This document shows, one piece after another, positions 36,972-52,702 of a stretch of 52,738 nucleotides of DNA; position 1 is the stretch's first letter; each line of letters opens with the position of its first letter. The position numbers and the translations under genes were made by a program. Under the pieces are notes generated by a model that ran no database searches, had not been told where the DNA came from, and was given only the letters and a program-made list of their open reading frames with translations. Source of the DNA: Lachnospiraceae bacterium (GTDB lineage Bacteria > Bacillota > Clostridia > Lachnospirales > Lachnospiraceae); contig JAAWRC010000022.1 in the NCBI GenBank assembly GCA_022800815.1, positions 1-52,738 on the forward strand, in the 5' to 3' direction.

Positions 36972-38207
36972 ATGTGGACATGTCCGGTTTGCAGGGAACA
37001 AAACGAGAGAAGTCTGCTGTGTGCGGTCTGCGGGTTTGACGTAAGTTTTCATTATAAAAAATATCGTACCCTGGCGTATGTGGACGGGAAGCGGGAAGCC
37101 GTGGCCGGGCTTTACCGGCTTGAGAAGGAGCCGGATTGGAGCCGGATGCCGCAGGGTTTGGAGAAGCTGGAAAAGCTGGCTTATTATGCGCAGAAAGGCT
37201 TTCCGGCGGCCCAGTACGAGCTTGGAAAGTTTTATAAAAACGGATTCGGATTTTCGGTGCGGGAAATCGAGGAGCGCAGAGACTTTTGGATGAAAAAGGC
37301 GGCGGAGCAGGGGTATCCGGGGCTTATGGCCGGAGGGGGAGGCGAAGGCTCGGCCGTTTCCGGAAACGGGCCGGAATCGGGGCTTACGTGCAGGCTGCGG
37401 GCAGTGGCCGTCGGCAGCAATCGGAGAGGGGAATGCAGCATACGGAAGTGGGCGGACGTGACGGCGGTGGCGGGCGGTTTTTGCTGTACGGCGGCGTTGA
37501 AACGTGACGGGACCGTGCTCGCTTCCGGAGGTGCGAAGAACTGGAAATGGGGAGTGGCCGGTCTGCGGGATATTCGGGCGGTGTCGGTTGGAAGGAACCA
37601 CATGGCCTTCTTAAAAACGGACGGGACCGTACTTGTACTGGGGTATGACGGAGAGGGCTGCCCGAGGACGCTAACATGGAGCGGCATCGTGGCCGTGGCC
37701 TGTGGGGAGAAGCATGCGGCGGGGCTGCGGACGGACGGAACCGTGGAGGCGGCCGGGGATAATGGAAACGGTCAGTGCAAGGTGGCGGGCTGGCAGGATA
37801 TCATGGCCATATCGGCCGGAGACGGTCACACGGTGGGCCTAAAGAAGGACGGAACGGTGGTTGCCGCCGGGGACAATCGGTGCGGCCAGTGCGAGGTCTC
37901 CTCCTGGCGGGACATCAAGGCGGTGTCGGCTGGAGGGGCCCACACGGCTGGCTTGAGGGAGGACGGGAGCGTGGTTGTTGCGGGAGCCAACCAATACGGC
38001 GAATGCGAGACCGCTTCCTGGCGGGACGTCGTGGCGGTCGCCGCCGGGGGGCATCATACGGTGGGCCTCAGAAAAGATGGACGCGTCGCCGCCGTCGGCC
38101 GGAATGAGGACGGCCAGTGCGATGTCGGCGCCTGGCGGGGGATCGCAGCGATCTGTGCCGGGGCCTTCCATACCGTGGGGCTTCAAAGGGTCTGGGACAT
38201 TGCGTAG
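36972..38207 (+). CDS. Zinc ribbon + Sel1-like + RCC1-repeat protein
   Basis: The product has 411 residues. An N-terminal zinc ribbon (WTCPVC...LLCAVC; Cys4, Cys7, Cys17, Cys20) is followed by a short Sel1-like segment (YYAQKGFPAAQYELGKFYKN, about 72-118) and then, from about 130, at least seven RCC1-type repeats of about 40 residues each, recognisable by 'DI.AVS.G..HT.GLK.DGTVVA.G.N..GQC'. RCC1 repeats form a seven-bladed beta-propeller used for protein binding. No signal peptide is present. In bacteria such propellers are usually uncharacterised. As first gene of a long co-directional cluster with Hsp70-like and AAA proteins, it may be a recognition or scaffold subunit; that is inference. 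Confidence 0.82.
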   Translation: MWTCPVCREQNERSLLCAVCGFDVSFHYKKYRTLAYVDGKREAVAGLYRLEKEPDWSRMPQGLEKLEKLAYYAQKGFPAAQYELGKFYKNGFGFSVREIEERRDFWMKKAAEQGYPGLMAGGGGEGSAVSGNGPESGLTCRLRAVAVGSNRRGECSIRKWADVTAVAGGFCCTAALKRDGTVLASGGAKNWKWGVAGLRDIRAVSVGRNHMAFLKTDGTVLVLGYDGEGCPRTLTWSGIVAVACGEKHAAGLRTDGTVEAAGDNGNGQCKVAGWQDIMAISAGDGHTVGLKKDGTVVAAGDNRCGQCEVSSWRDIKAVSAGGAHTAGLREDGSVVVAGANQYGECETASWRDVVAVAAGGHHTVGLRKDGRVAAVGRNEDGQCDVGAWRGIAAICAGAFHTVGLQRVWDIA

Positions 38208-38233
38208 GAATGATAAAAGGGGAGCGGGATGAG

Positions 38234-39469
38234 ATGAGAAAATGCATAAAATGTGGAAACGAGGTGAAAGCCGGCTGGGCCTTCTGTCCGGTCTGCGGCG
38301 GCTCCGAATTTCTGGAGGGGATTCCAATCTTTTCAGAGGCGGACGATTTTGAGCGGTATGCCACCGTTTCGCCGCTGTCCGCGGACGTGAGGGAGGATTA
38401 CCTGAGACACCGTTTCCCGCAGCCGGGGGGAGAGGCGGCGGAAGAGCCGCAGCCAGTGCAAGAGCCACAGTCGGCGGAAGGGCAGCCGCCGCTGGAGAAG
38501 CCTGCGGAAGAGCCGCAGCGGGAAGAGGAGCCGCAGTCGCCGAAGAAGCCCGCAGGCGAAGTGCGGCCGACGGGAGAAGCGCAGCCGCAAAAAGAATTGG
38601 CAGGAGCGCCGCAGTGGGCAGAGAAGCCGGCAAAGGAAGCACAGCCGCAAAAAAAGCCGCAGGAAGAGCCGCAGCCGGCAGAAATTCCGGTGACGGAAAA
38701 AACTGCGGAGACGGCCGGCATGAGTTTAAAACCCGCCACAAAAGCCGTTGCCGTTTTGGGGAGTTTTCTGGCCCTTGGCCTCGCCATTCTGGGCTGCATC
38801 GTTCTTGGAAACGGCTTGGTGGAGGTCATGGACGACGTACTCTATGGCGTTTCGGATCCCGGAGGATCCGGTCTGGTGCAGTTTCGGGAAATGTTGGCGA
38901 CGTGGCTTGGAGGTCTGCTTTTCTCCATCGTCCTCGCAGTGGGGGCAGGCGGCTTTTTGGGATTGTGCTGTGCCTATCTGCGCATTCGCAGGGTGCCCCT
39001 CGTCAGCCAGCTCCTGGCGGCGGTGACATCCTTTATCAGGAGGATTCCGGGAGAACTCTGGATCGTGGCGGCTTATGTTGTCTATGACGGGGAACATGGA
39101 GTGCGGGACATGGTTATTGCGGGGGCCTTCGTGGCGCTGGGCAGCGCTTACATCGGAGGTTTTGCTCACTGCGGGATTACGGAGGGGATTACGGAGGGCA
39201 GATGGAACACCCCCGCCTCCCCGGATGAGTTTGCGGGGCTCCTTAAGCGGGGCGGGTTAAGCGGGGTGGGAAAGGAGATACGGCTTCTTGCCCACTGTGC
39301 GATTGCCCACACCCTGCGGCGGGACATGACGACGGCCGTGGGATTGTTTGGCGGGCCTGCCAGTTACAGTGCGCTTCTGATCCTGCTTTTTACCGTGCCG
39401 GACGGGCTCGTCAGCATGGCCGTATGGGGAATTCGGAAGAGAAGGTCTGAGGACGGGGGAGGTGCGTGA
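38234..39469 (+). CDS. Zinc-ribbon polytopic membrane protein with Pro/Glu-rich linker
   Basis: The product has 411 residues, starting at ATG 38234 after GGGGAG. An N-terminal zinc ribbon (CIKCG...FCPVCGG; Cys4, Cys7, Cys17, Cys20) is followed by a long linker (about 60-155) rich in Pro, Glu and Gln, with repeated EEPQ/EPQ units. Four to five membrane helices follow (from about 172). The membrane part (LLFSIVLAVGAGGFLGLCCA, then RRVPLVSQLLAAVTSFIRRI) recalls the transmembrane core of polar amino-acid ABC permeases, but the normal ATPase-contact loop is not clear and no ABC partner is nearby. The next gene encodes a similar membrane protein, so they may form a heterodimer. Function is unknown. 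Confidence 0.75.
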   Translation: MRKCIKCGNEVKAGWAFCPVCGGSEFLEGIPIFSEADDFERYATVSPLSADVREDYLRHRFPQPGGEAAEEPQPVQEPQSAEGQPPLEKPAEEPQREEEPQSPKKPAGEVRPTGEAQPQKELAGAPQWAEKPAKEAQPQKKPQEEPQPAEIPVTEKTAETAGMSLKPATKAVAVLGSFLALGLAILGCIVLGNGLVEVMDDVLYGVSDPGGSGLVQFREMLATWLGGLLFSIVLAVGAGGFLGLCCAYLRIRRVPLVSQLLAAVTSFIRRIPGELWIVAAYVVYDGEHGVRDMVIAGAFVALGSAYIGGFAHCGITEGITEGRWNTPASPDEFAGLLKRGGLSGVGKEIRLLAHCAIAHTLRRDMTTAVGLFGGPASYSALLILLFTVPDGLVSMAVWGIRKRRSEDGGGA

Positions 39470-39470
39470 C

Positions 39471-40055
39471 ATGAGCATTGGATGGAGCTTGAGTGAGCTT
39501 GGGAGATTTCTCTTTGTGGAAATGATTTGGGCGTTTCTTCTCTTCCTTTTGTGTCTGTTTTTCGGACAGCTGACGGCCATGGCCCGCTTAAGCCGGGCTC
39601 CGGTTCTGACGCAGCTTTTGAATGCGGAGTTCGCCCTGTTTCGCCGGGTTCCGCTTCTGCCCATGCTGGCGTTGGCTGCGGTCTGGACAAACGGAGCGCT
39701 CGACGTGGCAACGATGACGGTTGTCCTGTTTCTGAGGTTTGTGCCGGAGCTGTCGGACGCCCAGATGGAGGGCATGAGGAGGGTGCCGGAGAATGGGAAT
39801 CCGGAGGGCACCGGAGCCTGGATGCTTTTTAAGCAGTCGCTGGCCTTTCCAGACCGGGTGAGCGTGCTTGGCGGAATTTGGAGAAGCCTGTTTTTGTGCG
39901 GATGGCTTTTCAGCGTCCCTCGCCATCCTTTCATGAATGCGGTGGCGGGCGTTCCCTTCCTCCTGGTGACGGTGACGGTCGGCTTCTGGTTTGTGGGGCT
40001 TTTGACGGAGGCCGTCCTCCGGTTTTTGTGCGGACGGCTGCAAAGGAAGGCCTGA
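39471..40055 (+). CDS. Polytopic membrane protein, permease-like, partner of the preceding one
   Basis: The product has 194 residues. GGGGGAGGTG lies seven bases before ATG 39471, one base after the preceding stop, so the two are translated together. Four membrane helices are visible (about 10-40, 60-85, 140-165, 165-185). The segment MARLSRAPVLTQLLNAEFAL with FRRVPLLPMLALAAVW resembles the first half of amino-acid ABC permease domains (cf. 'R.P.L.QL...'). It has no zinc ribbon. With the preceding protein it could form a membrane platform for the soluble ATPases in the same cluster. Function is unknown. Confidence 0.72.
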   Translation: MSIGWSLSELGRFLFVEMIWAFLLFLLCLFFGQLTAMARLSRAPVLTQLLNAEFALFRRVPLLPMLALAAVWTNGALDVATMTVVLFLRFVPELSDAQMEGMRRVPENGNPEGTGAWMLFKQSLAFPDRVSVLGGIWRSLFLCGWLFSVPRHPFMNAVAGVPFLLVTVTVGFWFVGLLTEAVLRFLCGRLQRKA

Positions 40056-40114
40056 CATGGGGGAGGCCTGACGGAGGAGGTGCCGGGAGACGGTGAAAGA
40101 GAGGGAGTGGAGAC

Positions 40115-41818
40115 GTGTTTGACATAGGAATTGATTTTGGGAGTACGTATACGACGGTGTCGGTATACCGGGTGGAGACGGGGCAGTTGGAAACGGTGTT
40201 TTTTAATCAGGATTCGCCCTATGTCCCCTCGGTGGCGGCCTACGACGGGAAAAAGCTGGAATTCGGTCGGGCCGCAAAGCTCCATGCGGGAAAAAGGGGG
40301 GTCTCCGTCTATAAGGCGTTTAAAATGCTTCTCACGGAGACGGATGAGGAGAAGCTGGAAAAGCGGGGCTACCTGGGTCTGCACACTCCGTCCTGGATTG
40401 CCAGGGAGTTTCTGGTCGACCTGATTCACAAGGTTCTGGCCCGCACCGGCGAGGAGCAGATCGGGTGTCTGGTCATCGGCGCGCCGGAAATCTGGTTCCA
40501 GGAGGTGAAGACCATCGCCGCAAGGAGCATTCTGCGGGACATCTGCCTGGAGATTCCGGAGGTTGGCTCCGTGCAGGTGGTCAGCGAGCCGGCGGCGGCC
40601 AGCGCATTCTTCTCCTACAATTATCAGATGATTACGGGAAAGGCCTTTGACGGGAACATCCTGCTGATTGACTATGGCGGAGGAACTCTGGACCTCACCC
40701 TCACCCAGGTTACGGCCCGGCCGGACGGGAAAAACCGGCAGCGCATGGAAATCAAGGTGCTGGAGGCGGTGGGCGCCGGGGAGAATGCGGAGCGCCGCAT
40801 CGGCAAGGCGGGCATTGTCTACATGGAGGTGGTGGTGGCGGAGGCCATCTGGCGGGCCGGCCTCGTGGAAGGGGACGGGGGACCGAGGATCGACGGGAAA
40901 TTTCTCCGGGCGGTCAATGCGCTGGAGGATGAGCTGCAGAGCCGGACCGAGGAGATCGGTGCGTTTTTTTCGGAGCGGGGCGTCGATGATCCGGACCGGC
41001 TGGGCGAGGAATTTACCAGTATCGACTACCGGGGGGAAGAGCTGGACATCACTTACGGGCTTCTGGCGGAGGTCTACGACGAGGTGATACGGCCGGTCCT
41101 CGATGAAAAGCTGAGGGAAATGCTTTCTTTCATGGAGGGGAAAGGAATCGATTACGGGGACAGCCGCTGGGATTCCTTTAAGATTGCGCTGGTCGGCGGT
41201 TTTGGAAATTTTTACCTGGTGAAGAAGCAGGTCATGGACCTGTTTCAGTTTACGCCGGGGGACAGGCGTCAGTCGGATATCATTCGCAACAAGTCGGACT
41301 GCGAGAAGGCCGTTTCCCTGGGAACCGCCCTGCTGGCCTCCCGCATGGTGGGAATCCGCCAGACGGCGCCTTATTCTATCGGCGTGTTCGCCCGCAGCGC
41401 TTCCGGGGAGACATGCCGGGATTATGCGTTCCGTTACAAAGAGGACATCGAGTTTGGAAAGGCGTATTTTCCGGTCAGCCCTGCGGACGGGCACCGGATC
41501 GTCACATTTATCGCCTCCAATTCCATTTCCCGGCTCGTAATCAACATGGGGCACGACGAGCAGACGGCGATCATCGTGCCGCTGAAGGAGGAGTTTAAAA
41601 ATCGGCTGGAGAACGTGGTGAAAAATGCGTACCGGACGGCGGTGATCGGTTTTTCCCTGGACCCCTCCGAGGTGGTGAGCGTTCATGTCTGCGAATACGA
41701 CCTGCTGGAGGATGAACTGGGGGAGGATCACGTGATTGAGCTTACCCGGTTTGACGAGCTGTTTGAGTTGACGAGGGTGGAAAAGCTTGACGGAGTATCA
41801 GGTAATTGCGCAATATGA
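40115..41818 (+). CDS. Divergent Hsp70/DnaK-like ATPase A
   Basis: The product has 567 residues and starts at GTG 40115 (GGGAGTGGAG upstream). The actin/Hsp70 ATPase motifs are present: phosphate-1 IDFGSTYTTVSVY (from residue 6), phosphate-2 LIDYGGGTLDLTL (Asp186), and adenosine motif IALVGGFGNF (about 357-366), plus VVSEPAAASAFF. The C-terminal 170 residues do not look like the DnaK substrate-binding domain and there is no EEVD-type tail. It is shorter than DnaK (about 610-640). It is closely related to the second Hsp70-like protein at 44,280. Its last six codons and stop lie inside a dispersed palindrome. No dnaJ or grpE gene is near. Client and partners are unknown. Confidence 0.88.
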   Translation: MFDIGIDFGSTYTTVSVYRVETGQLETVFFNQDSPYVPSVAAYDGKKLEFGRAAKLHAGKRGVSVYKAFKMLLTETDEEKLEKRGYLGLHTPSWIAREFLVDLIHKVLARTGEEQIGCLVIGAPEIWFQEVKTIAARSILRDICLEIPEVGSVQVVSEPAAASAFFSYNYQMITGKAFDGNILLIDYGGGTLDLTLTQVTARPDGKNRQRMEIKVLEAVGAGENAERRIGKAGIVYMEVVVAEAIWRAGLVEGDGGPRIDGKFLRAVNALEDELQSRTEEIGAFFSERGVDDPDRLGEEFTSIDYRGEELDITYGLLAEVYDEVIRPVLDEKLREMLSFMEGKGIDYGDSRWDSFKIALVGGFGNFYLVKKQVMDLFQFTPGDRRQSDIIRNKSDCEKAVSLGTALLASRMVGIRQTAPYSIGVFARSASGETCRDYAFRYKEDIEFGKAYFPVSPADGHRIVTFIASNSISRLVINMGHDEQTAIIVPLKEEFKNRLENVVKNAYRTAVIGFSLDPSEVVSVHVCEYDLLEDELGEDHVIELTRFDELFELTRVEKLDGVSGNCAI

Positions 41819-41894: not shown

Positions 41895-42422
41895 ATGAAT
41901 TGCCTCGCATGTGGAAGTGATGAGGGGGAGGCGGCCATGAGCCGCTGTCCCAGATGTGGATTCCCCCTGATTCACACGGTGGGAGAATCGGAGGACCAGG
42001 AGAGGACGCTCGAAAAGATGGCGGAGGAATACCGGAGGAAGAAGCTGGATGGGTTGTCCCTCGGGTTTCTGACCTACCGGCATGAGCTGAGGGAGGGGCG
42101 TCTGGTGCAGTGCGGCATTCAGGAGGTCACGTTCCCGGTGCCGGCCTCGGAGCTTTCGCCTGGGGAGATTTTCTGGCAGGAGGGAAAATTTGCCAGAATC
42201 CGGGGCGGGAAGGAGATCACGCTGACCTTGGTCGTCCGGAAGGACGGGGCGAGGCGGAAGACTCACCTGCCGATGTGCGCACCGGGGACGGACGGCTTCT
42301 GGAAAGTGGGACTCCTGTTGGGACCGGGCTTTGCGGTGCGGCTGGCCGTGGGGGACGAGACGGCTTACAGATGCTCCGGCGAGGTGCCGCTTTTGCGGTT
42401 TGCAATGTCCGGGGAGGAATAG
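41895..42422 (+). CDS. Small zinc-ribbon protein A
   Basis: The product has 175 residues and starts at ATG 41895 after AAGGAGG. An N-terminal zinc ribbon (CLACG...RCPRCG; Cys3, Cys6, Cys18, Cys21) is followed by a charged helix (about 36-52) and a C-terminal beta-rich domain (about 75-175). The same layout and several shared positions (W.E..FAR..G.E, VRK.G, G..LRL) occur in the 163-residue protein encoded at 47,462, so the two are paralogs. Each follows an Hsp70-like gene in this cluster. They could be adaptors for the Hsp70-like proteins. No signal peptide or membrane helix. The family is unknown to me. Confidence 0.78.
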   Translation: MNCLACGSDEGEAAMSRCPRCGFPLIHTVGESEDQERTLEKMAEEYRRKKLDGLSLGFLTYRHELREGRLVQCGIQEVTFPVPASELSPGEIFWQEGKFARIRGGKEITLTLVVRKDGARRKTHLPMCAPGTDGFWKVGLLLGPGFAVRLAVGDETAYRCSGEVPLLRFAMSGEE

Positions 42423-42470: not shown

Positions 42471-42499
42471 TTTACAAAGCAGGTCAAAATTGTTAAAAT
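42471..42499 (+). promoter_or_regulatory. Internal promoter in the Hsp70/AAA cluster
   Basis: TTTACA (42471-42476), a 17-base spacer and TAAAAT (42494-42499) lie 25 bases before the start at 42524, in the only AT-rich gap of the cluster. It could express the second half (42,524 onward) separately from the first. Confidence 0.65.
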
Positions 42500-42523
42500 T
42501 TATGTAATCATGGAGTGAGGGCG

Positions 42524-44233
42524 ATGTTTTCCTATAACAGATTTTGGCACTTTGTATTTGCGGACGAGACGGATACCTATTTCATAGAGAGCGGGACGGG
42601 GCTTAAATTCCGCTTTTATTTGTGGTATCGGCTTTGCCAGGATGAGTTCAGGGAGATCTACTTTCTCAATGGGACGAAGCGGAATTTGAGGATTGAGTTT
42701 TTGGACCCGGCATCCTTTGGCGCTTACAACCAGAAGCCGGTCCTGGGCGTGTTCGGAAAGGCGAAGAACTATGACAGGGAAGACCGGGTCCAGCCGGTAG
42801 AAAACCTGGCAAGATACCGTGGTTGGATGGAGAAGCAGTTAAAAAGAGGGCGGCAGGCCTTTGTGATTCCCCTGGACGTTTTTGAGAGTCTCACCTCCGG
42901 GGCGGACGGGGAACGGTTCTTGGACGGGCTCATCGACCTGGCCGGGCAGAGGACGGAGAGCACCGTGATTTTGACCGCCCCCGTTCAGGGGGAGGAGACC
43001 AGAAGGCTCCTCGGCGGGCCGGCTTTTGAATATTGCGGCAGGGCGGGCAGAAGGCTCTGCCCGCAGCTGTATGACATTTTGCACGGAAGGGAGCGGACCG
43101 GCCTTTATGGAGCCCTCCACGAGGAGCTCGACGGTGCGGCGGTGTTTCTGCACGCATATGACAGAGAGCAGCTGAAAAGCCTTGTCCGGGCGGCTCAGTT
43201 CAGGCAGACGAAGGAGATCTGCGGGGAGGTGGAGCTGGAGGCGATTGCAGAGTATCTTTATTGCTGGTGCCGCTCCCGGAACCTGAGGGAGGGGTCGGCG
43301 GTTCTGCCCGCCCCCCGAAAGTCGGTCCGCCTTGCGGATCTGTATGACCGGCTCCAGAGCGAAAACGTCTGGAGAAAGCTGAGAAAAGCTGCCGCCAGCT
43401 TCCATGTCAGCAGAAAGTCGGATCGGATTGAAACCCTGTACCCGGATCTTGAGGGGCGGCTTTCCGGCTTTTACTGCGGGGAGACGGACTGTTACCGGGA
43501 GCTTGTCAGGGCTGTCGACGGCATCGATTTGGCAGGATGCCTGGAATACGGCGTTTCCCGCACGGAGCTTTCCCGGTTTGAAGAATTTAAAGAACAGATA
43601 CGCACGCCGTCCAACTGGGACATTTGCATAAAGGTGGAGGAATATGTGCTCCGGTATCTGGCGGAGCTCCGTCAGGCTTTCCTTTCGGGTCGGGCAGAGT
43701 GGGATGATCTGGAGCGGGTGGACGAAGTTCACCGGATCACCCGGATCCTGGAGGCCATAAATTTTGGCGGGCAGCATCTTTGGGAGAGTCCGGGGGCCGG
43801 GGAACCCACGGAGATACTCGCCATCTGCGAGCTGTATCAGCAGTATCTGGATATCTCCAAGACGAGATGCCGCTATGGCAGGAAGCGGAGACGGTTAAAG
43901 CGGGAATACGACGAGATGCTGGAATTGGGGGAGGAGGATCCGGAGCTTGCCGTGCGCCTGGAAAACGTCTGGAAAAGAGAACGGGTTTTTGAACATGCGG
44001 AGAGGGAGGCGAAAAAGCGGATTCTCCAATGCGAGGAGGACCTGGAAGAACAGAATTTTGGGACGATTCGGGAAGTCCTCCGGGAGTGGAGCGAGGAGAG
44101 ACCCGAGAGTCGGCAGATAATCGCCGCAGCCCCGGAGGAAAAGGATCAAATTGACGAGTCGGATCCGGTGCAGGAGAAGTATGATCTGGAGGCGGCAAGG
44201 CGGATTGCGGATCTGGTCCATTATCATGGATGA
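42524..44233 (+). CDS. Unknown 569-residue protein, possible inactive AAA-like N-terminus
   Basis: I do not recognise this family. I prefer ATG 42524 (GGAGTGAGG upstream); a GTG nine bases earlier is possible. The N-terminal 190 residues have alternating strands and helices in an order like an AAA core (REIYFLN, QAFVIPLDVF near residue 110, STVILTAPV near 148), but no Walker A (no GxxxxGK[ST]) and no catalytic Glu after the Walker-B-like strand. The rest is mainly helical, with a strongly charged segment from about residue 440 (CRYGRKRRRLKREYDEM) and a long coiled-coil-like stretch to the acidic C-terminus. It stands first behind an internal promoter and before Hsp70-like B, so it probably works with that protein. 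Confidence 0.75.
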   Translation: MFSYNRFWHFVFADETDTYFIESGTGLKFRFYLWYRLCQDEFREIYFLNGTKRNLRIEFLDPASFGAYNQKPVLGVFGKAKNYDREDRVQPVENLARYRGWMEKQLKRGRQAFVIPLDVFESLTSGADGERFLDGLIDLAGQRTESTVILTAPVQGEETRRLLGGPAFEYCGRAGRRLCPQLYDILHGRERTGLYGALHEELDGAAVFLHAYDREQLKSLVRAAQFRQTKEICGEVELEAIAEYLYCWCRSRNLREGSAVLPAPRKSVRLADLYDRLQSENVWRKLRKAAASFHVSRKSDRIETLYPDLEGRLSGFYCGETDCYRELVRAVDGIDLAGCLEYGVSRTELSRFEEFKEQIRTPSNWDICIKVEEYVLRYLAELRQAFLSGRAEWDDLERVDEVHRITRILEAINFGGQHLWESPGAGEPTEILAICELYQQYLDISKTRCRYGRKRRRLKREYDEMLELGEEDPELAVRLENVWKRERVFEHAEREAKKRILQCEEDLEEQNFGTIREVLREWSEERPESRQIIAAAPEEKDQIDESDPVQEKYDLEAARRIADLVHYHG

Positions 44234-44279: not shown

Positions 44280-46010
44280 ATGGGACAGAAAATCGGAGTC
44301 GATTTGGGAAGTACCTATTCTTCCTTCGCCGTGTTTGACTGGGAGGGAGGCATGCCCAGGACGGTGACGGCGGTGCAGGGGAGCACGGCGGCCAGCGAGC
44401 CGTCGGTGGCGGTCATTGACATGAGCGGAAACTGGCAGTACGGCACGGCTGCGAAAAACATGGTTCCCTTGTCAAGCTTGTATCCCCGGATTCAGGTGTT
44501 CCGGGCTTTTAAGATGCTGCTTCCGGAGAATCGGAAGGAGATTTTGCAGGGCGGCGGATATTCCAGGGAGCACTCCCCGGCAGACGTGACCAGAAGATAT
44601 CTGGACCATTACCTGAGCGGGATCTTAAACCGGCTTGACAGCCCGGAGGACGGGAGGGAGATCGAGCAACTGGTGATCTGTGCGCCGGAGATCTGGGGGA
44701 AGGACGACAGAACCCAGGACGGCAGGGCGGTCTTAAGCGATATCTGCAAGGGGTTTGACTACGTGAAGTCGGTGACCGTGGTCAGCGAGCCGGCGGCGGC
44801 CAGTGCTTTTTTTGCATTCAGCTTTATGAAAAACACGGGAAAGCCCTTTGACGGCAGAATCCTGATTATCGATTATGGCGGCGGAACTTTGGACATCACG
44901 CTGACGCAGGTACATGCGGAGGGCGGCGGGAAGGAATCCCTGGCACAGATCAGGGTTCTTGATTCCACCGGCGCAGGCGAGAATCAGAGGGACGGGAAGC
45001 TGGGGGATGCGGGGATCGCCTACATCCACGCCCTCTGCCGCCTGGCCCTGGAGGAGGGCGGGGTTCTGGAGGCGGGAGAGTCACCGGCGGGCAAGGAGTT
45101 CGAGCTGATGTTTGATTTTGCGGAGCAGGGGCTAAAGCAGCCGGAAAACCTGGCGAAGATCCGCAGGCAATTAAAGAAATACGGCGATGACTTTTCTGAG
45201 TTTGCGGCTTCCTCCGAGACGGTATTCTCCGTGAATTACGGCATGACGACGGTGCCGGTCACCTACACCCTCTTAAACAGGGCCTACGAGGAGGCCATCG
45301 CTCCGGTTCTCAGGGAACAGCTGGACCTGATCCGGGTCTCCATGGACGCTCACAAGGTGGACTACATGGACGGTGATTCCGACAGCTTCAAGATCGCCCT
45401 GGTGGGCGGTTTCGGGAATTTCGCCCTGGTGGAGCGGCAGGTCAGGGAATATTTCAAATTTTCCGCCATTGACCGGAGACTCAAGGACATTGGCGCCGAG
45501 ATGAAGGAGGTGGCCGTTTCCTACGGGGCGTCCCTCATTGCGGACGGGGCGGTGAAGATCAGGAGCACGGCGGACCGGAGCCTCGGCATCTACAGCCACC
45601 GGGAGGGGAGTGCGGAGGAAATCTGCCGGTTTGCCATCCTCTACCGTCAGGATCTGGAGCCCTACCGGATCTACCCTGTCCTGAATGAAAAAGGAAGGCC
45701 CTCGGTGTTTTTGAATTCCATGGGGAGGATCGAGGAATTCGGCGTGTCCAGAGGGCTTGACGAGGACGGAAGGCCCAGGAAGCCCCATCATCTGGTGTTA
45801 AAGAAATCCGTTCGGGAGAGGCTTAGCCATCTGCCGGTGGACACCTACGTCCGGTATGGGTTTTCCATCGATCCGTCCGGAATTTATTATTTTCACGTGG
45901 AGGCGCAGAACGACGACACCGGTGAATTCGAACCCTTCGGGGAGCCGATCCCGCTGGACCGGTACAACCGGCTCTTTGAGAACATGATCGAACTGGACTG
46001 GGATTACTGA
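44280..46010 (+). CDS. Divergent Hsp70/DnaK-like ATPase B
   Basis: The product has 576 residues. Motifs: phosphate-1 VDLGSTYSSFAVFDW (from residue 7), VVSEPAAASAFF, phosphate-2 IIDYGGGTLDITL (Asp198), and adenosine motif IALVGGFGNFALV. It shares long patterns with Hsp70-like A, including FRAFKMLL against YKAFKMLL, and the region after the second motif (TLTQV). As in A, the C-terminal 180 residues (ending YNRLFENMIELDWDY) are not a recognisable DnaK substrate-binding domain. It is probably a cytoplasmic ATP-driven chaperone or remodelling factor specialised for this system. Next come a coiled-coil protein and a zinc-ribbon protein, with overlapping reading frames, in the same order as a module. 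Confidence 0.88.
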   Translation: MGQKIGVDLGSTYSSFAVFDWEGGMPRTVTAVQGSTAASEPSVAVIDMSGNWQYGTAAKNMVPLSSLYPRIQVFRAFKMLLPENRKEILQGGGYSREHSPADVTRRYLDHYLSGILNRLDSPEDGREIEQLVICAPEIWGKDDRTQDGRAVLSDICKGFDYVKSVTVVSEPAAASAFFAFSFMKNTGKPFDGRILIIDYGGGTLDITLTQVHAEGGGKESLAQIRVLDSTGAGENQRDGKLGDAGIAYIHALCRLALEEGGVLEAGESPAGKEFELMFDFAEQGLKQPENLAKIRRQLKKYGDDFSEFAASSETVFSVNYGMTTVPVTYTLLNRAYEEAIAPVLREQLDLIRVSMDAHKVDYMDGDSDSFKIALVGGFGNFALVERQVREYFKFSAIDRRLKDIGAEMKEVAVSYGASLIADGAVKIRSTADRSLGIYSHREGSAEEICRFAILYRQDLEPYRIYPVLNEKGRPSVFLNSMGRIEEFGVSRGLDEDGRPRKPHHLVLKKSVRERLSHLPVDTYVRYGFSIDPSGIYYFHVEAQNDDTGEFEPFGEPIPLDRYNRLFENMIELDWDY

Positions 46011-46058: not shown

Positions 46059-47465
46059 ATGGTTTTTCAGAACATGGAGCGTTACCTTGAGATTTTGAAA
46101 TCGAAGGAGGACATCTCTGCGGAACAGGTGTTGGGAGGCTTTCAGGAGCTCTGCAAGGACGTGACCAGGGCCGGACAGAACGTGGCCTATCATGACGTCA
46201 GGGACGTCCCGGCCTTTCTGGAGCTGTTGTTCTGGACGGGAAACCTGTATTGTCGACTGTACGAGAAAAAGAAAGAGCAGCTTTCGGGGTATGACGAGGC
46301 GGAGGACGTGGGAGAGCTGCACAGGGAGATTCAGGAGAACCAAGAGCTTTTGCGGGGGATCGGAGAGCGGGTGCAAAGCGTCAGGGGAGAGAGGGAACGG
46401 CTGGCCCGGGAGGTAAAAGAAGCCGAGGATGGCGCAAGGGAACTCTCCCTGGAGACGGAGCGGCTTAAGAGCCGGAATGCGGCGCTTAAGGCGCAGATCG
46501 AGGAGGAAGAAAGGCGGAAGCGGGAGGCCGGGGAGGAGACCCGTGCGCTTCGGGCCCAGTTCGAACAATACAAGCAGGAAGCCCTGATGGCCTTGGACGA
46601 TGCGGAGAGCCTTCGAAAGAGCAATGAGAAGTTTCGGAACGGGGAGCTTGCAAAGGCGAGGGAGGAGCTTGAGGGGGCGGAAGCGGAGAGAGCGGTCCAG
46701 GAAAAGGAATTTCAGGAGCTAAATGCGGGCAGGGCGGCGCAGACGGAAAAACTACGGGAATGGAAGGCCAGAAAGGAAGAGCTGGAAAGCCAGATTGCCT
46801 CTGGGGAATTTGGGCGGGATCAGATAAAAAAACGTCTGGAGAGGCTGGAGGCCGCATATAAGGGCCTGTCGGAAGAAAACGAGGAGCGGGCGAGGAGGGC
46901 GGAGGACCTTGCGGCCCGGTGCCTGGAGCTGGAAGGGCGGAAGGCGGAGCTGGAGAGCCAAAATCAGTCGGCGGAGGCGGAGACGGAGAATCTGCAGGAC
47001 GAGATTCGCCGGCGGGAAGAGAAAAATCGGGGTCTTCTTGCGATCCTTGAGAAAAGCCGGGGGGAGGAGAAGCGGCTCAAGGATGAGACGAAGCGCCATG
47101 AGGACGAGATCCGCTCCCTCCAAAAGAAGCTGGATGATTTGGACAGCGAGCGGGAAAACCTCCAGATGGAGCAGGAGAAGATGAACGAACGGCTGGAGGA
47201 CCTGAACAGGAGTTTTGACCCCGCCATACGCAAAGAGGTGGAGCAGAGGTTAAAAAAGACGAAGGACAAGGAGGCGTTTTTCACGAAACAGCTGGAGGGG
47301 ATACGGAAGGTGGTCGCAGTCATCGCCCCCCGCATCCAGACGGCCGGAGATTTCGGTGACATGGACAAGATCCGGCAGGCTTTGTCCGAGATTGACAAGA
47401 GCATAGACGAACTGGCAAACGGAATCAGATTGTATGAGAAAATTATAGAGGAGAGCCTGACATGA
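46059..47465 (+). CDS. Long coiled-coil protein
   Basis: The product has 468 residues; ATG 46059 follows GGAGGGAGAAGAG. After a globular N-terminal region (about 1-85; LGGFQELCKDVTRAGQNVAY) the protein is almost unbroken coiled coil from about 90 to 400, rich in Glu, Lys, Arg and Leu (for example REVKEAEDGARELSLETERL). The C-terminal 60 residues (RKVVAVIAPRIQTAGDFGDM) form a further helical bundle. No membrane helix or motor motif. It could be a spacer, tether or client of the Hsp70-like protein encoded before it. Its stop overlaps the next start (ATGA), so it is translationally coupled to the zinc-ribbon protein. Confidence 0.82.
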   Translation: MVFQNMERYLEILKSKEDISAEQVLGGFQELCKDVTRAGQNVAYHDVRDVPAFLELLFWTGNLYCRLYEKKKEQLSGYDEAEDVGELHREIQENQELLRGIGERVQSVRGERERLAREVKEAEDGARELSLETERLKSRNAALKAQIEEEERRKREAGEETRALRAQFEQYKQEALMALDDAESLRKSNEKFRNGELAKAREELEGAEAERAVQEKEFQELNAGRAAQTEKLREWKARKEELESQIASGEFGRDQIKKRLERLEAAYKGLSEENEERARRAEDLAARCLELEGRKAELESQNQSAEAETENLQDEIRRREEKNRGLLAILEKSRGEEKRLKDETKRHEDEIRSLQKKLDDLDSERENLQMEQEKMNERLEDLNRSFDPAIRKEVEQRLKKTKDKEAFFTKQLEGIRKVVAVIAPRIQTAGDFGDMDKIRQALSEIDKSIDELANGIRLYEKIIEESLT

Positions 47466-47953
47466 ATTGTTACGTGTGCGGAACAAAACTGGACGAGGGA
47501 GCGGACCGCTGTCCCTGTTGCAAGGAATACGTGGTGGATTTCATCGGTGATTCGGAAAATACGGGGCGAATCTTAAAGGAAAAAGGGGAAAGGCGGCGGG
47601 AGAAGCTTCTGTCCCAATACGGGATTGAAATCGCCGTTTACAAATGGGAGGAGGAACAGTCCCGGAAGATGCGGGTTCAGATGCCTCCTGCGGAGAGCCT
47701 GTACCGCAGCGAGGGATGGCTGGAGGAACCCTTTGCAAGGGTGCCGGGCATGGAGGAATTTGCGGTTGAGACGGCGGTTCGGAAAGCTGGAGAAGAAAAA
47801 ACGGTTGTTATGACGGTTCAGTCTTTTTCGTCACCGACCTTTTTGCATATCGGGGCCGTGATCGAGGATGGGTTTAAACTCCGGCTGGTGTTAAAAAATG
47901 ACGACGGGGAGATTCATCGCTCGGAGGCGGTTTCACTTTTGGATGTTCTATAA
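47462..47953 (+). CDS. Small zinc-ribbon protein B
   Basis: The product has 163 residues. ATG 47462 overlaps the previous stop by four bases. The N-terminal zinc ribbon is CYVCG...RCPCC (Cys3, Cys6, Cys17, Cys20). A charged helix follows (KEKGERRREKLLSQYGIEIA) and a beta-rich C-terminal domain (about 70-163). It is a paralog of the protein at 41,895. Same order, zinc ribbon then helix then beta domain, suggests both are adaptors, one per Hsp70-like protein. A type A palindrome begins five bases after the stop. Confidence 0.78.
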   Translation: MNCYVCGTKLDEGADRCPCCKEYVVDFIGDSENTGRILKEKGERRREKLLSQYGIEIAVYKWEEEQSRKMRVQMPPAESLYRSEGWLEEPFARVPGMEEFAVETAVRKAGEEKTVVMTVQSFSSPTFLHIGAVIEDGFKLRLVLKNDDGEIHRSEAVSLLDVL

Positions 47954-47957
47954 AACA

Positions 47958-48005: not shown

Positions 48006-48057
48006 AGACAGAGAAGTATCGTGCGGCGGGACGTAGTCGGCTGCGGGGAGGACAAGA

Positions 48058-49344
48058 ATGGCATTAAAGAAAAAGATCAGGCGGACCCAGAATGCGATTA
48101 TAAACAAGATCCGGGGAACGAAAAAGACGGATGCGGAGAGGGAGAAGGAGATCAAGGAGCAGGTGGCGGAGCAGACCCGGAGGATGTGCGACATTAAGGG
48201 GATCCTGGAGGCGATCGACTTTTCCCTCAGCGAGCTTCCGTCGGAGGAACTGGAGAAGAAGATGTCGTCCGGACAGTCGGTGCCGGATTATGAGCTGGTC
48301 CGGAAGATGGCGGTGGCTTATCTGGACCAGGCGAGGGCCACGGAGATGGATACCTCCAGGATCGACGAGAGCATCCGCTACGCCGCCAACGCCTTTGCAG
48401 AGGGCGTCAAGTACGGGCAGCTCAACAAGGCCAGGTGGGGCATGGTCGCCATGATGCACCTGATCCAGTATGAGCGGGAGGACGTGGACGAGACGGACCG
48501 GGGGCAGTTTGCCGAGATGGCTGCCAGGAAGGAGCGGCAGGCGGAGAACTACGTGACCATGCTCAAGGAGTGCAAAAAGTTAGATAACCGGGAGAAGCGG
48601 AAGGCGAAGTTAAATTCCCTGTATCGGAAGTTTGTCGGTGAATTTGAGGCGAAACGGGCAGAGTTCAACAGACTCCGGGAGACGGAGGAGGGCGAGTACG
48701 CCATGGGAGAGCTGGAGGAGAACGCCCACCATCCCATCAACCTCTCCATGCTGGCCTCCGAGCTGGACGCCCTGCTCACGGTGATCAGCCGGAAGGATAT
48801 GGACATCCTGCTCCTTCGGGGGGAGATCCGGGAGATCAACCGCCAGATCGCCCTGATTCAGTCCACCATGGACCAGATCTATCTTGCCTTGAGCGAGGAT
48901 TCCTACGTGGAGGACCAGGATCTCCTGGCCAGGATCGAGGAGGTCAATAGAGAGCGGCAGGAGGCGGTCAGCCGGATCATCGTGGAGAGCGAGCGGATGG
49001 ACACTGCGCTGACAGAGCATCAGACGGCCATGAAGCAGATTTTGGATTCCCCCGCCAGTGCGAAGAAGACGGCTCAGAACCTGGTCTATCTGGAGCGGAA
49101 AGAGCAGGAAGAGATTGAAAAGAAAGAACGAATGGAGGCCAACCGTGCAAGGCGGAGGGCGGAGAAGGAGCGGAAGATCGAGGAGCTTAAGCGGCGTCAG
49201 CGGGAAGAGCAGGAGGAACGGGAACTGGACAGGACCCTTGACGATCTGGAGCAGGAGCTGGAAGAGGGCTTCGAGGAGGCCTACATGGAGGACGCCCTGG
49301 AGGAAGTGGAAGCCGAAAATTACCAGTACAATGAGGATTATTGA
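48058..49344 (+). CDS. Charged helical protein 1, candidate AAA substrate (ESCRT-III-like layout?)
   Basis: The product has 428 residues and starts at ATG 48058 after GGGGAGGACAAGA. The first 25 residues are strongly basic (MALKKKIRRTQNAIINKIRG); then helices throughout, with low Pro and Gly content. The middle has a hydrophobic helical core (SELDALLTVISRKDMDILLL, then REINRQIALIQSTMDQIYLA). The C-terminal 100 residues switch from basic coiled coil (EMEANRARRRAEKE-like) to a very acidic end (EELEEGFEEAYMEDALEEVE). A basic N-terminus, helical core and acidic C-terminal helix is the layout of ESCRT-III subunits, but I see no diagnostic motif, and the length is nearly double. It is encoded immediately upstream of a second basic helical protein and of a Vps4-like AAA. 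Confidence 0.7.
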   Translation: MALKKKIRRTQNAIINKIRGTKKTDAEREKEIKEQVAEQTRRMCDIKGILEAIDFSLSELPSEELEKKMSSGQSVPDYELVRKMAVAYLDQARATEMDTSRIDESIRYAANAFAEGVKYGQLNKARWGMVAMMHLIQYEREDVDETDRGQFAEMAARKERQAENYVTMLKECKKLDNREKRKAKLNSLYRKFVGEFEAKRAEFNRLRETEEGEYAMGELEENAHHPINLSMLASELDALLTVISRKDMDILLLRGEIREINRQIALIQSTMDQIYLALSEDSYVEDQDLLARIEEVNRERQEAVSRIIVESERMDTALTEHQTAMKQILDSPASAKKTAQNLVYLERKEQEEIEKKERMEANRARRRAEKERKIEELKRRQREEQEERELDRTLDDLEQELEEGFEEAYMEDALEEVEAENYQYNEDY

Positions 49345-49361
49345 TAAGGAAGGGAGACCCC

Positions 49362-50060
49362 ATGGCGCTTGGCGGTATGTTTGACAAAGGGAAACGGGAA
49401 GAGAGAGTGTTAAAGAAAGAGCGGAAAAAGAAGAATAAGCTATGGCAGGAGAAGCTTTGCCGGGAACTTAGCTATGCGGACTGCGCTGCGACCCTGGAAC
49501 GGTGTAAGCTGGAACTGGACACGGTCATCAAGCTGGAGCGGATGCGTTACAACGAGCGGGTGGACAAGGGGCTGGATCCCAAAAATCAGAGGGAGCGGAT
49601 CGCCAATGCGGCCAAGGGCCGGAGGATCGTGGACCAGGCCATGGTGGAGCTGGAGGACAACCGCAATACGGAGGATTTAAATACCAGCATCAACCTGGTG
49701 TGCCTGGCGGTCAGACAGTTGGACCGGGTGTCGGATTCCACGCCGTCGGTGAGCAGGCGTTTTTACGGCTATGCCAAGGGCCTGTTCCGTTCCGAGCAGG
49801 ATTACCTTGCGGAGCTCAACAAGCTGGAGATGCCGCCGGAGGTGGACAATCTGGTGAGCGGCAGCTTTGTGGACGACCTGGTGGCGGGAGGAAGCTATGA
49901 CGCCTGCCTGAAGAAGCAGCTTCGGGGAAACAAGGAGGCCAGAAGCCAGACGGCGGCGCAGTACGGGGCCATGCTGGACGAGCTTCCGGCGGGCGGCACG
50001 GAGTACGGCGCCGGGGCAAAAAGCGACATAAGGGCGGCGAGGAAGATGACCGATCTGTAG
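49362..50060 (+). CDS. Charged helical protein 2, candidate AAA substrate (ESCRT-III-like size and layout?)
   Basis: The product has 232 residues. ATG 49362 follows AAGGGAGA with good spacing; a TTG at 49341 overlaps the previous stop. The N-terminus is short, glycine-containing and then very basic (FDKGKREERVLKKERKKKNK), followed by a chain of helices (about 30-170; LERCKLELDTVIKLERMRYN, then RIVDQAMVELEDNRNTEDLN). The last 50 residues are Ala/Gly-rich and end RAARKMTDL. This size and the basic helical N-terminal half recall CHMP/Snf7-type ESCRT-III subunits, or the PspA/Vipp1 branch. There is no sequence motif I can claim. It lies 17 bases after the preceding gene and 37 before the AAA gene. 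Confidence 0.7.
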   Translation: MALGGMFDKGKREERVLKKERKKKNKLWQEKLCRELSYADCAATLERCKLELDTVIKLERMRYNERVDKGLDPKNQRERIANAAKGRRIVDQAMVELEDNRNTEDLNTSINLVCLAVRQLDRVSDSTPSVSRRFYGYAKGLFRSEQDYLAELNKLEMPPEVDNLVSGSFVDDLVAGGSYDACLKKQLRGNKEARSQTAAQYGAMLDELPAGGTEYGAGAKSDIRAARKMTDL

Positions 50061-50097
50061 GGCGGCGCCCCGCAGAGCTTGGGAAGGAGAACAGGAT

Positions 50098-51429
50098 ATG
50101 GAAAGGCAGTATATACGGGAGATCAACCGTCTGGATAACGAATATCATTCCCTGCGGAACCAGGCCATGGCGGCTAACATGGCAAACGGAGGGGCAGTAT
50201 CCAGGGAAGAGGGAAAGCTCTACCAGAAGGCGGCGGAGGTTTGCGCCATGGCGGCTTCCATGAGCGTGGGTGCGGCCCAGGATAGATGGATCGAAAGGCA
50301 GATCGACTGCGAGGGCGAGCTCTGCCATATCGTGGAGATTCTGAATCCCAGGGCGGTCAAAAACATGGAGGCGGCCGCCGAGGCAAAGAAAAAGAACGGG
50401 TCGGCCTCCGGGCGGCAGACGGAGGGAGGCACTGCGGGAGGCGCTCCCGGAAATGCGTCTGGAAATCCGGCAGCAGGCGGCGGCAGGGCTTCCGGGAATC
50501 CGGCGGCCGGCGGCCGGGACGAGATCAGTGAGGAGACGGTCGCATCCTGGTTCCGGGAGGCCCCGAAGACCGGGTTTGAATCCGTGGCCGGCATGGAGGG
50601 ATTAAAGGCCCTCATGGAGCGGATCATCCGGGACATCGGCAACGCCAGTTTGAATGCGTTTTTTGAGATGGAGACGGTCCAGTCCTTCTTTTTCTACGGA
50701 CTTCCCGGCTGCGGAAAGACCTTCCTGTTGGAGGCCTTCGCCCATGAGCTCATCGAGAGGTTCGATTTTAAATACATGTGTCTGTCCGGGGCGGACATCC
50801 ACGAGAGCCTGGTGGGACGGACGGAGAAGATCATCAAGCGGATGTTCGAGGAGGCGGAAAAGAACGCCCCCTGCATCCTGTTCATCGACGAGATCGACGG
50901 CGTCTGCGGCAACCGCAAAAAGAGCCATCAGCCGGCCCACGTGATCTCCGCCACCAACCAGTTCCTCACCAGCTATAACGATTTGATCAAATCCGACAAG
51001 CAGGTGATCTTCATCGGGGCCACCAACAACCCGGAGGACGTGGACATCGCCATGCTGGACCGGGTGGAGCTCATCGAGGTGGAGCTGCCGGACGCCGCCG
51101 CCAGGGCCAATTATTTCAGGATGCGGCTGGAGCACATCATCCGGAACGAAGAGGGCTTCTCCTATGAGGACATGGCAGGGCAGACGGAGGATTTCAACTA
51201 CCGGGATCTGAGGAAGTTTACCGCCAGGCTCAAGAAGGAGCTGGTGACCGAGATCGGAGTCTCCTACGGAAACGACACGGCCGCCGCGACGGAGGCCATG
51301 AAAAACAATGCTTTCTGCCTGAGGGGAGAGACTTTCAAAAAGGTCAGAGAGGAATATCACTTGCTGCCCAAGGATACCGGCCATCTGAAACAATGGGCGC
51401 AGAGCGCCATGGAGGAGCTGGGCGGCTGA
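50098..51429 (+). CDS. Vps4/katanin-like AAA ATPase with helical N-terminal domain
   Basis: The product has 443 residues; AAGGAG precedes ATG 50098. Layout: an N-terminal helical domain (about 1-90; YQKAAEVCAMAASMSVGAAQ) in the position of the MIT domain, a Gly/Ala/Asn linker (about 95-140), and one classical AAA module. This starts FESVAGMEGLKALM, then Walker A GLPGCGKT (201-208), pore-loop region around SGADIHESLVGRTEKI, Walker B ILFIDEID (Asp264, Glu265), sensor-1 VIFIGATNN and an Arg (322) in AMLDRVE where the meiotic-clade AAAs carry Arg fingers. It would form a hexamer that threads substrate proteins. Among known AAAs the order and motifs best fit Vps4/katanin/spastin-type proteins; FtsH, p97 and ClpX features are absent. 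Confidence 0.88.
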   Translation: MERQYIREINRLDNEYHSLRNQAMAANMANGGAVSREEGKLYQKAAEVCAMAASMSVGAAQDRWIERQIDCEGELCHIVEILNPRAVKNMEAAAEAKKKNGSASGRQTEGGTAGGAPGNASGNPAAGGGRASGNPAAGGRDEISEETVASWFREAPKTGFESVAGMEGLKALMERIIRDIGNASLNAFFEMETVQSFFFYGLPGCGKTFLLEAFAHELIERFDFKYMCLSGADIHESLVGRTEKIIKRMFEEAEKNAPCILFIDEIDGVCGNRKKSHQPAHVISATNQFLTSYNDLIKSDKQVIFIGATNNPEDVDIAMLDRVELIEVELPDAAARANYFRMRLEHIIRNEEGFSYEDMAGQTEDFNYRDLRKFTARLKKELVTEIGVSYGNDTAAATEAMKNNAFCLRGETFKKVREEYHLLPKDTGHLKQWAQSAMEELGG

Positions 51430-51445
51430 GGGGAGAGGGAAACTT

Positions 51446-52702
51446 ATGGCGGACAGAGCGGAAAATGAAGCTGGACAGGCGGCGGAAGGTGCGAGGGATG
51501 CGGCCGGGCAGTGGGCGGAACAAAAGCTGATCCTCCTGGAAGAGTCAGACCAATATGAGAAGGTTCTGTCTGCTCTTACCGGTTCCGGCTATGAAGGGAA
51601 TCTGGAACGGCTTGGGCGGATGGATCATTACGGTCAGGCAAAGCTTCTGGAGATGCTCTTTGAACAGTCAGAACGGAGAATGGACATGAGTGCTTTGCTT
51701 GGCGTGGAGGAGGCTTACGGCCTGCTCTTTGCCGGCCCCTCCGGCTGTGGGAAAATGACGACGGCAGAGCATCTTGTGGGAAACTTAAAGGATATGGGAT
51801 ATACTCGTCTGGTGACGTTGAGCGGTGTTCGGTTCGGAGTGCATTCCGGAAAAAAGGCCGTGAAGCGGATGAAGGCCGTTTTGAGGCTTGCCTCGGAGGA
51901 ACATCCGCTGATCCTCCTCCTGGAACAGCTCAGTGAGAATCCCTATGGGGGGGAGCTCTATGACCTCCTCCTGGAATTTGCGGAGGAGCAGGAGCCGGGA
52001 GTCTTTTTTCCGATTTTGATCGAGCAGGATGGAGGAATGTTTTCCGCCGCCCTGAAACGGGATTTTCCGCTCATCTTCTTTCCTCTTCCCTCTTTCGAGG
52101 AGCGGAAAAATTACATCCGCCTCCATCTGAATGTGGAGGTCGCCTATGAGGAAGACGGGGAGGCGGGAGAAGAAGAGGCCTTTTCCTATCAGGTCGCATT
52201 GGAAGGGATCACTCCGGATGAGATTGCGGCGGAGACGGAGGGGTTTGACTATGCGCAGATGAAGCGGCTGATGGAATGGATCAAATTGTACCTGTCTGAC
52301 ATTGTGGTGCGGGACCACGTGTCGGAGCAGTATGCCTATGAACGGCTGCGGGACGGGGGCTATTACAAAGTAAGGGGCCATATGGTGCGGCAGGCGATCG
52401 CCATGGCGAGAGAGACGGAGGGCCAAAGCCAGGCCGCCGCCCCTGCGCTCCAGCCGGCCATCGGGCTTCTCTCCCAGAGGGAGCATCCGGCCGGGGAGAA
52501 GGCGGCGGGGAGCCCGGAGCCGTCCGTCCGCCTGACCCTCTCCGAAATCGAGCAAAAGGTGAAGACCGCAGCGGAGGGCGGGCCGAAGGACGCCCGTGCC
52601 CTGGCGTTCCGCTACCGGGAACGGGTGTATCAGACGGATGAATTTGGAAACGTGGACGAGCGCCTTGCCAACGCATCTGACGAATACGACGAGGAAGAGT
52701 GA
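51446..52702 (+). CDS. Degenerate AAA-like partner protein
   Basis: The product has 418 residues, starting 17 bases after the AAA gene with GGAGAGGG upstream. The AAA core is recognisable: GLLFAGPSGCGKMTTAEHL in the Walker A position has Met instead of Ser/Thr after the Lys, and the Walker B strand reads LILLLEQL, lacking the Asp-Glu pair. A sensor-like strand (FFPILIEQDGG) and the lid-like helices (EIAAETEGFDYAQMKRLMEW) match the neighbouring AAA (MAGQTEDFNYRDLRKFTARL). It is therefore probably a catalytically weak or dead AAA, perhaps a regulatory or structural subunit of a mixed ring. The C-terminal 90 residues are charged and probably flexible. The gene ends 36 bases before the window edge. 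Confidence 0.82.
   Translation: MADRAENEAGQAAEGARDAAGQWAEQKLILLEESDQYEKVLSALTGSGYEGNLERLGRMDHYGQAKLLEMLFEQSERRMDMSALLGVEEAYGLLFAGPSGCGKMTTAEHLVGNLKDMGYTRLVTLSGVRFGVHSGKKAVKRMKAVLRLASEEHPLILLLEQLSENPYGGELYDLLLEFAEEQEPGVFFPILIEQDGGMFSAALKRDFPLIFFPLPSFEERKNYIRLHLNVEVAYEEDGEAGEEEAFSYQVALEGITPDEIAAETEGFDYAQMKRLMEWIKLYLSDIVVRDHVSEQYAYERLRDGGYYKVRGHMVRQAIAMARETEGQSQAAAPALQPAIGLLSQREHPAGEKAAGSPEPSVRLTLSEIEQKVKTAAEGGPKDARALAFRYRERVYQTDEFGNVDERLANASDEYDEEE

Follow-up and report, generated by a model that had tools for sequence, protein, structure and literature searches.

A conserved gene cluster of Hsp70-like ATPases, zinc ribbons, helical proteins and two AAA proteins, one active and one degenerate, in a Lachnospiraceae bacterium

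The 52,738-nucleotide stretch of Lachnospiraceae DNA analysed here (the window; contig G000:C14 of a 3.4 Mb genome in 75 contigs) carries at positions 36972–52702 thirteen genes, g01 to g13. Their products are two Hsp70-like ATPases, two AAA proteins of which one is active and one degenerate, zinc-ribbon proteins, membrane proteins and a set of helical or coiled-coil proteins. That these genes constitute one conserved multi-gene system, and not a chance neighbourhood, is well supported: their composition and order are conserved between loci, the ATPase motifs are kept, the pseudo-AAA protein is itself conserved, and proteins with a common zinc-ribbon tag or with repeats stand beside the cluster. 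As to function, we tentatively favour, at something short of an even chance, an Hsp70-coupled AAA remodelling machine whose substrates, near the membrane, would be the helical proteins of the cluster itself and which swappable adaptors would direct.

The initial annotation of this DNA, made from the sequence alone, had proposed a single system and suggested a search for conserved neighbourhoods. In that search the homologues proved to be not scattered but grouped, with a g06–g13 core that is near-colinear in 14 loci (the window, the locus of G004, L042–L050, L068, L069 and L132), which refutes a chance gathering of the genes. Since L042 and L043, and likewise L046, L047 and L049, are close relatives, the number of independent loci is smaller than 14. 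G004, a second species of the genus, has orthologues of all thirteen genes in the same order at 50–93% identity; in addition, it has three RCC1 genes that separate g05 from g06, and a Sel1 tag gene at the 5′ end; distant cluster members share 16–43% identity. The consensus order of the core, taken from a gene-presence matrix of 17 loci, is g06–Hsp70–g08 (coiled coil)–zinc ribbon–(small transmembrane protein)–g10–g11–g12 (AAA)–(g13, pseudo-AAA). The full order, with the small transmembrane gene and g13, is seen in L042, L044, L045, L048, L050 and L068, the last of which departs from it by one additional g10 and by a short second g12-like AAA fragment of 182 aa (L068:11143–11691) between the AAA and pseudo-AAA genes. 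Two g11 genes each are found in L046, L047 and L049, and also in L043, a locus cut before g06 in which a tag gene separates g12 from g13; g06 is thus present in 13 of the 14 loci. In L069, g06 is placed after the zinc-ribbon gene. The divergent L132 has g06, Hsp70, g08, zinc-ribbon, transmembrane and AAA genes in altered order, and its g10 and g11 are assigned by position only, both proteins being unrecognised by the profiles; its helical protein, searched in 245 genomes of the class, matched only G562, the genome of L132 itself. A small protein encoded inside the same cluster (L132:6793–7248) has a weak biotin/lipoyl-carrier match (E 0.077).

The system is rare. Scanning a species-genome collection with the Hsp70 alignment returned 12 loci, one of them that of G004. 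The core is present in nine (L042–L050, of which L043 and L046 are cut at one end), and the remaining two, L051 and L052 of a single genome, hold only the Hsp70 and zinc-ribbon genes, plus g08 in L051. A g10 profile gave clear matches in six of 397 genomes of the family: G000, G004, G379 (L044), G501 (L068), G539 (L069) and G701 (L049). L068 and L069 were newly found by this search and hold full clusters, whose core genes were recognised by models trained on neither locus (the training set was the window, G004 and L042–L052, with L069 added for the tag model only). In a sample of the phylum, one of 398 genomes was clear, namely G000 alone. Weak g10 matches occurred in three further family genomes (G678, G520 and G363; E 3e-4 to 8e-4), with no cluster at the G678 locus, L071, and in two of the phylum sample (E 8.6e-4 and 9.3e-4). 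The zinc-ribbon profile matched 48 genomes overall, 40 of them with partial zinc-ribbon matches only; the eight family genomes (of 397) with full-length matches are the six named above together with G562 and G722 (L133). All of these six and eight genomes carry clusters or close variants, that of G722 being truncated by a contig end. Eleven of the 14 core loci are placed in the family of the window or carry Lachnospiraceae in their titles, which L042, L047 and L050 do not. Three scans of viral contigs revealed no cluster; two were empty and one returned two weak AAA loci (L137 and L138).

In the window, all thirteen open reading frames lie on the forward strand, and the overlaps and short gaps first described for them were recovered. 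The gaps range from −8 to 104 nt and are, in order, 26, −8, 59, 70, 92, 46, 48, −4, 104, 17, 37 and 16 nt for starts at 38234 (g02), 41889 (g05) and 49362 (g11); if g05 is instead begun at the ATG at 41895, the fourth gap becomes 76 nt. The contig ends 36 bp past g13, which therefore marks only a provisional 3′ limit of the cluster. Pfam matches above the curated cut-offs were obtained for g01 (RCC1), g04 and g07 (HSP70, PF00012; 2.7e-6 and 3.6e-6) and g12 and g13 (AAA; 1.5e-29 and 3.1e-5), and none for g03, g05, g06 and g08–g11; a zinc ribbon in g02 scored below its cut-off. The ratio of nonsynonymous to synonymous substitution rates (Nei-Gojobori) is lowest for g10 (0.075), followed by g12 (0.093) and the Hsp70s (0.104 and 0.136), with a maximum of 0.353 for g03.

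The Hsp70-like ATPases g04 (40115–41818) and g07 (44280–46010) are 37% identical, and the small zinc-ribbon proteins g05 (41895–42422), which has a second conserved region that appears by eye to be of beta type, and g09 (47462–47953) are 30% identical; both pairs are paralogous, as originally noted. The Hsp70s display the actin-fold nucleotide-binding motifs. In an alignment of 18 rows, DYGGGTLD and the EP of EPAAAS are found throughout, the first motif retains its GST in 17 (L043 is cut there), and at the aligned lysine position 15 rows have K and three (L051, L069 and L132) have R. They fall far under the curated DnaK/HscA threshold (best 34.8 bits against a cut-off of 822.55), and the part C-terminal to their nucleotide-binding domain is short, some 165 residues on our reading. 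Between g07 and g09 lies g08 (46059–47465), a protein with a conserved N-terminal region and weak coiled-coil matches. In L051 (1755–14258), the Hsp70–g08–zinc-ribbon unit adjoins a 1171-aa fusion of a Clp-type AAA, an FtsH-type AAA and an M41 peptidase. The unit therefore accompanies AAA motors in two contexts, from which we infer that it may be an Hsp70 loading unit that serves such motors. Further neighbours in L051 are an FHA-kinase, two other kinases and a PP2C gene.

The two AAA proteins agree with the expectation of one active and one degenerate copy. g12 (50098–51429), extended N-terminally by about 85 aa, shows the Walker A motif GLPGCGKT, the Walker B motif FIDEID and the sensor GATN; Walker A, the Walker B DE pair, the sensor-1 Asn and one Arg are invariant in all 12 aligned rows. 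Judged from these motifs, g12 is a CDC48/Vps4-type AAA protein predicted to be active. The earlier label "Vps4-like" holds as far as this type is concerned. In comparisons with the PDB, however, the AAA domain ranked CDC48/p97 first, then AFG2 and NVL/Rix7, and only then VPS4B, and the MIT domain was not found. MIT (PF04212) was matched neither in the window proteins nor in the Pfam list of g12 itself, was not among the matches listed for 12 g12 members (25 of 64 families), and was not found with a profile of the g12 N-terminus against the PDB; on these tests, which have low power, a MIT domain in g12 was set aside. A further PDB profile search gave a weak VPS4B stretch (E 0.79), and the curated CdvC model NF041006 was not reached (84.7 bits, cut-off 650). 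In g13 (51446–52702), all 10 aligned rows keep the three glycines of Walker A, the lysine is K in nine and R in one, and the Walker B DE pair is absent from every row. By its alignment, g13 is therefore a conserved pseudo-ATPase.

Three further proteins belong to the core. g06 (42515–44233) has a conserved N-terminal region, a less conserved tail and no known domain; g10 (48058–49344) is long, charged and helical by eye; for neither were known families found among the members scanned. g11 (49362–50060) was modelled with AlphaFold2 as two long stretches of helix plus a C-terminal helix set apart from them (helices at residues 6–68, 74–99, 103–123 and 219–230; predicted local distance difference test score (pLDDT) 70.5, predicted template-modelling score 0.62). 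A hydrophobic C-terminal pattern occurs in 14 of 17 g11 proteins and in 6 of 252 other genes of these loci; a first background count of 19/268 had included g11 genes, and 13 of the 16 g11 proteins in that set carry the pattern. Two g13 homologues (L042:16939–17916 and L043:8920–9951) share it.

The genes at the 5′ end add a feature that was missed in the initial annotation: g01, g02 and their relatives have a common N-terminal zinc ribbon, followed in 10 of 16 aligned rows by a [YF]..[YF].T[LVI] motif. In g01 (36972–38207; 411 aa), this tag precedes the RCC1-like propeller that had been recognised at the outset (Pfam RCC1_2, 5.7e-45). In g02 (38234–39469), it precedes a membrane protein with four hydrophobic segments. 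g03 (39462–40055) is a small membrane protein with two segments above threshold. By the measure used, hydrophobic segments within the window cluster are confined to g02 and g03, which had been called permease-like; neither matches a permease domain, and that label stands unconfirmed. When six whole genomes were searched for the tag, 17 matches were strong (at least 42.8 bits), and 15 of these lie within 20 kb of a cluster; the other two are on G004:C4 and G379:C12. The former, a zinc-ribbon reading frame of tag type at G004:C4:48115–48246, has one internal stop and is probably a decayed gene. Strong matches were absent in G501 and G701, and five of the six matches in G539 were outside the training set of the tag model. 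The tagged bodies scanned are RCC1 (g01 and G539), Sel1, MORN, and leucine-rich repeats (LRR) of DUF285 type or LRR. A repeat protein, tagged or untagged, adjoins the core in 12 of the 14 loci (the window, G004, L042–L045, L047, L049, L050, L068, L069 and L132); none was recognised at L046, where the contig ends, or at L048, the remaining flank genes there being unscanned.

The window appears to join two operons. g04 and g05 cluster with L048 in the Hsp70 and zinc-ribbon trees (support 100/98 and 100/99), and g07 and g09 with L069 (87/94 and 88/88), as do g12 (100/99), g10 (90/89) and g06 (90/93), although long branches were flagged in these trees, L069 foremost. The different lineages of the two pairs suggest a join of two operons and not a local duplication, which we rejected; the module duplication proposed earlier is thus incorrect as a local event. 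Homologues of g02 (27% identity, E 9e-17) and g03 (E 5e-11) stand directly 5′ of g06 in L048. The best promoter-like site of the region (42471–42499, forward strand; 10/12, with TG before the −10), itself weak, sits at the joint before g06. A promoter-like site and a terminator-like hairpin with a T tract (36817–36843, forward strand; 12-pair stem) precede g01, the hairpin separating the cluster from ABC-transporter permease and ATPase genes (by eye; 33220–36713) directly upstream. As the counts of such sites are close to those in shuffled sequences (6 promoter-like sites against 4.4 expected, 17 hairpins against 15.5 by chance), their placement is merely consistent with joined operons.

In the remodelling machine that we tentatively favour, the zinc-ribbon protein, the coiled-coil protein g08 and the Hsp70-like ATPase would form a client-capturing unit, which would pass its clients to a hexameric g12 motor. 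g12 would probably be complexed with g13, which retains an ATP-binding motif and not the one for hydrolysis. g12 has no protease domain, and its most probable substrates would be g10 and g11, the helical proteins conserved together with it; they may assemble, possibly as polymers, at the inner face of the membrane beside the small membrane proteins, and g12 would disassemble or remodel them. The zinc-ribbon-tagged RCC1, Sel1, MORN and LRR proteins could then serve as swappable adaptors or sensors that steer where the machine acts. Several observations weigh against this proposal. The classical Hsp70 cycle needs a J-domain protein and GrpE, and neither is among the 13 proteins. The genes g06–g13 encode no hydrophobic segment, so that the membrane location is drawn from the neighbours only, and the small transmembrane gene is missing from the window, G004 and L069. 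g13 was not seen in L047, L049 and L046, whose contig ends inside g12. g10 and g11 have no sequence link to any filament family in Pfam, PDB and PspA profiles; the g11 model is of middling confidence (below 50 pLDDT for helix 219–230) and is to be read as secondary structure; the counts of the C-terminal pattern compare related sequences; and the 12 loci of the Hsp70 scan were selected through Hsp70 itself.

The same genes could instead encode quality-control chaperones, Hsp70 and AAA being a second disaggregase or unfoldase pair for stress-damaged or membrane proteins, in the manner of DnaK–ClpB, with the helical proteins as scaffolds. The two ATPases do share one cluster, L051 pairs the Hsp70 unit with the Clp/FtsH–M41 fusion, and the G004 cluster is followed downstream by a DUF4145 gene and then by a gene that resembles ClpB by eye (861 aa). 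The DUF4145 protein is present in G004 only, one of 16 genomes, and was discarded as a part of the system. We regard quality control as unlikely, however, because J-domain and GrpE are absent, g10, g11 and the pseudo-AAA are co-conserved and would be superfluous, six clear cases in 397 genomes are few, and ClpB went unrecognised in the gene lists of the other loci, for which no dedicated scan was made. A defence-type conflict system, in which the repeat proteins sense an invader or stress signal and the Hsp70, AAA and helical proteins form a membrane-acting effector, would account for the patchy distribution and for a single tag on variable RCC1, Sel1, MORN and LRR repeats. Five RCC1/Sel1 tag genes belong to the G004 cluster, six tag genes adjoin that of G539 (all three that were scanned being RCC1), L051 has kinase, FHA and PP2C genes, L045 has a gene of the dynamin family, and HSP70-containing conflict systems have been described by Kaur et al. 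2020 (PMC7159879, consulted in part). PADLOC, run on 10 of the 13 proteins, nevertheless found no system-specific component (g12 matched the AAA models IetA, TRIP13 and PDC-S01, and g08 coiled-coil stretches of JetC/LmuB), no nuclease, toxin or other effector domain exceeded its cut-off in the 13 proteins, and the core genes evolve slowly; a conflict role seems to us rather improbable, if worth keeping in mind. That unrelated genes came together by chance, or through a mobile island, would fit the patchy distribution and the unlike flanks in G000 and G004, yet it is highly improbable given near-colinear clusters in 14 loci with members as distant as 16–43% identity, and clusters or close variants in every genome of the family sample with a clear g10 or a full-length zinc-ribbon match.

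A true ESCRT-III/Vps4 system, with g10 and g11 in the ESCRT-III superfamily and g12 as a MIT-bearing Vps4, is suggested by a layout in which helical proteins neighbour an N-terminally extended protein with one AAA domain, by the long helices of the g11 model and by the C-terminus LxxRLxxL, the core of the MIM1 motif, which is found only in the L132 protein at the g11 position. When approximate sequences of four human ESCRT-III proteins were compared with 372 proteins, the highest-ranking single matches were g11 proteins, namely that of L049 for CHMP4B (E 0.0049) and that of L069 for a model built from all four sequences (E 0.015), and with that model g11 was enriched (17 against 339 proteins, p 0.0012; against 43 helical proteins, p 1.7e-5). 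Column-shuffled models did equally well or better in 56 of 60 cases, however, so that the signal was rejected as composition, and the model barely detects real PspA (best 3.7 bits). Pfam Snf7 and PspA_IM30 gave no match to g10 or g11, although Snf7 also passed its cut-off in none of 14 controls, including Sulfolobus; PDB profile searches were negative; and the PspA profile comparison gave E 0.32 and 0.22, against 0.025 for the decoy coiled coil g08. No homology to ESCRT-III was accordingly found by sequence, and we hold membership of that superfamily, with the MIT tests likewise negative, to be quite unlikely. The tests were of low power, and an ESCRT-like way of working is possible: g10 and g11 as membrane-bound helical filaments, disassembled by the Vps4-type AAA through C-terminal helices, with the Hsp70–zinc-ribbon unit as loader and the repeat proteins as targeting subunits. 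Such a bacterial ESCRT-like machine remains a doubtful proposition. An ordinary PspA is encoded elsewhere in the genome (G000:C25:8234–8905). The dynamin-family region of L045 (3427–7291 and 18909–21135) holds a dynamin-family GTPase (Pfam) and, upstream on the opposite strand, a similar GTPase gene (by eye), with small WXG100-like genes (by eye) immediately downstream.

A clear Vps4 is reported to be missing from bacteria (PMC7615534, consulted in part), though transfers of VPS4-like ATPases to some bacteria have been reported (PMC11237479, likewise). If the cluster encodes one machine, bacteria would gain an Hsp70-coupled AAA remodelling system, and the tagged RCC1, Sel1, MORN and LRR repeat proteins a function; should g10 and g11 prove to be filaments on the membrane that g12 takes apart, the machine would amount to a counterpart of ESCRT-III/Vps4 in bacteria. 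The genes are few, colinear and conserved, which makes them amenable to co-purification.

The initial annotation knew of no named bacterial system of this composition; none was matched in PADLOC or in our literature searches either, and no published description was found among titles and abstract openings, a coverage that leaves out most subscription literature. The newness that rests on these searches concerns the gene system, not the folds. In the DnaK–ClpB bichaperone an Hsp70 is coupled to an AAA+ motor, a trait shared with the cluster, whose AAA is of CDC48/Vps4 type and not Clp, and which has additional helical and zinc-ribbon parts and no J-domain or GrpE. ESCRT-III/Vps4 and archaeal CdvBC likewise encode helical proteins next to a classic AAA protein that has a single AAA domain and is extended at its N-terminus, but here Snf7, PspA and MIT homology was undetected, and Hsp70, zinc ribbons, a pseudo-AAA and repeat proteins are added. 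The consulted part of PMC11237479 reports bacterial VPS4-like ATPases with a TPR and six-transmembrane partner, and also PspA next to a protein with two AAA domains, the N-terminal one inactive. Compared by description, these systems also combine active and inactive AAA with a membrane partner, whereas in our cluster a gene of its own encodes each of the two AAA proteins, active and dead, no PspA homology was detected, and Hsp70 and zinc ribbons are conserved. The DO-GTPase/tubulin/HSP70 and GAP1-N2/HSP70/GrpE conflict systems, as far as the consulted part of PMC7159879 describes them, share Hsp70, zinc ribbons, membrane proteins and repeat modules with the cluster; tubulin, GrpE and DnaJ were unmatched in its 13 proteins, and AAA motors take the place of the GTPases.

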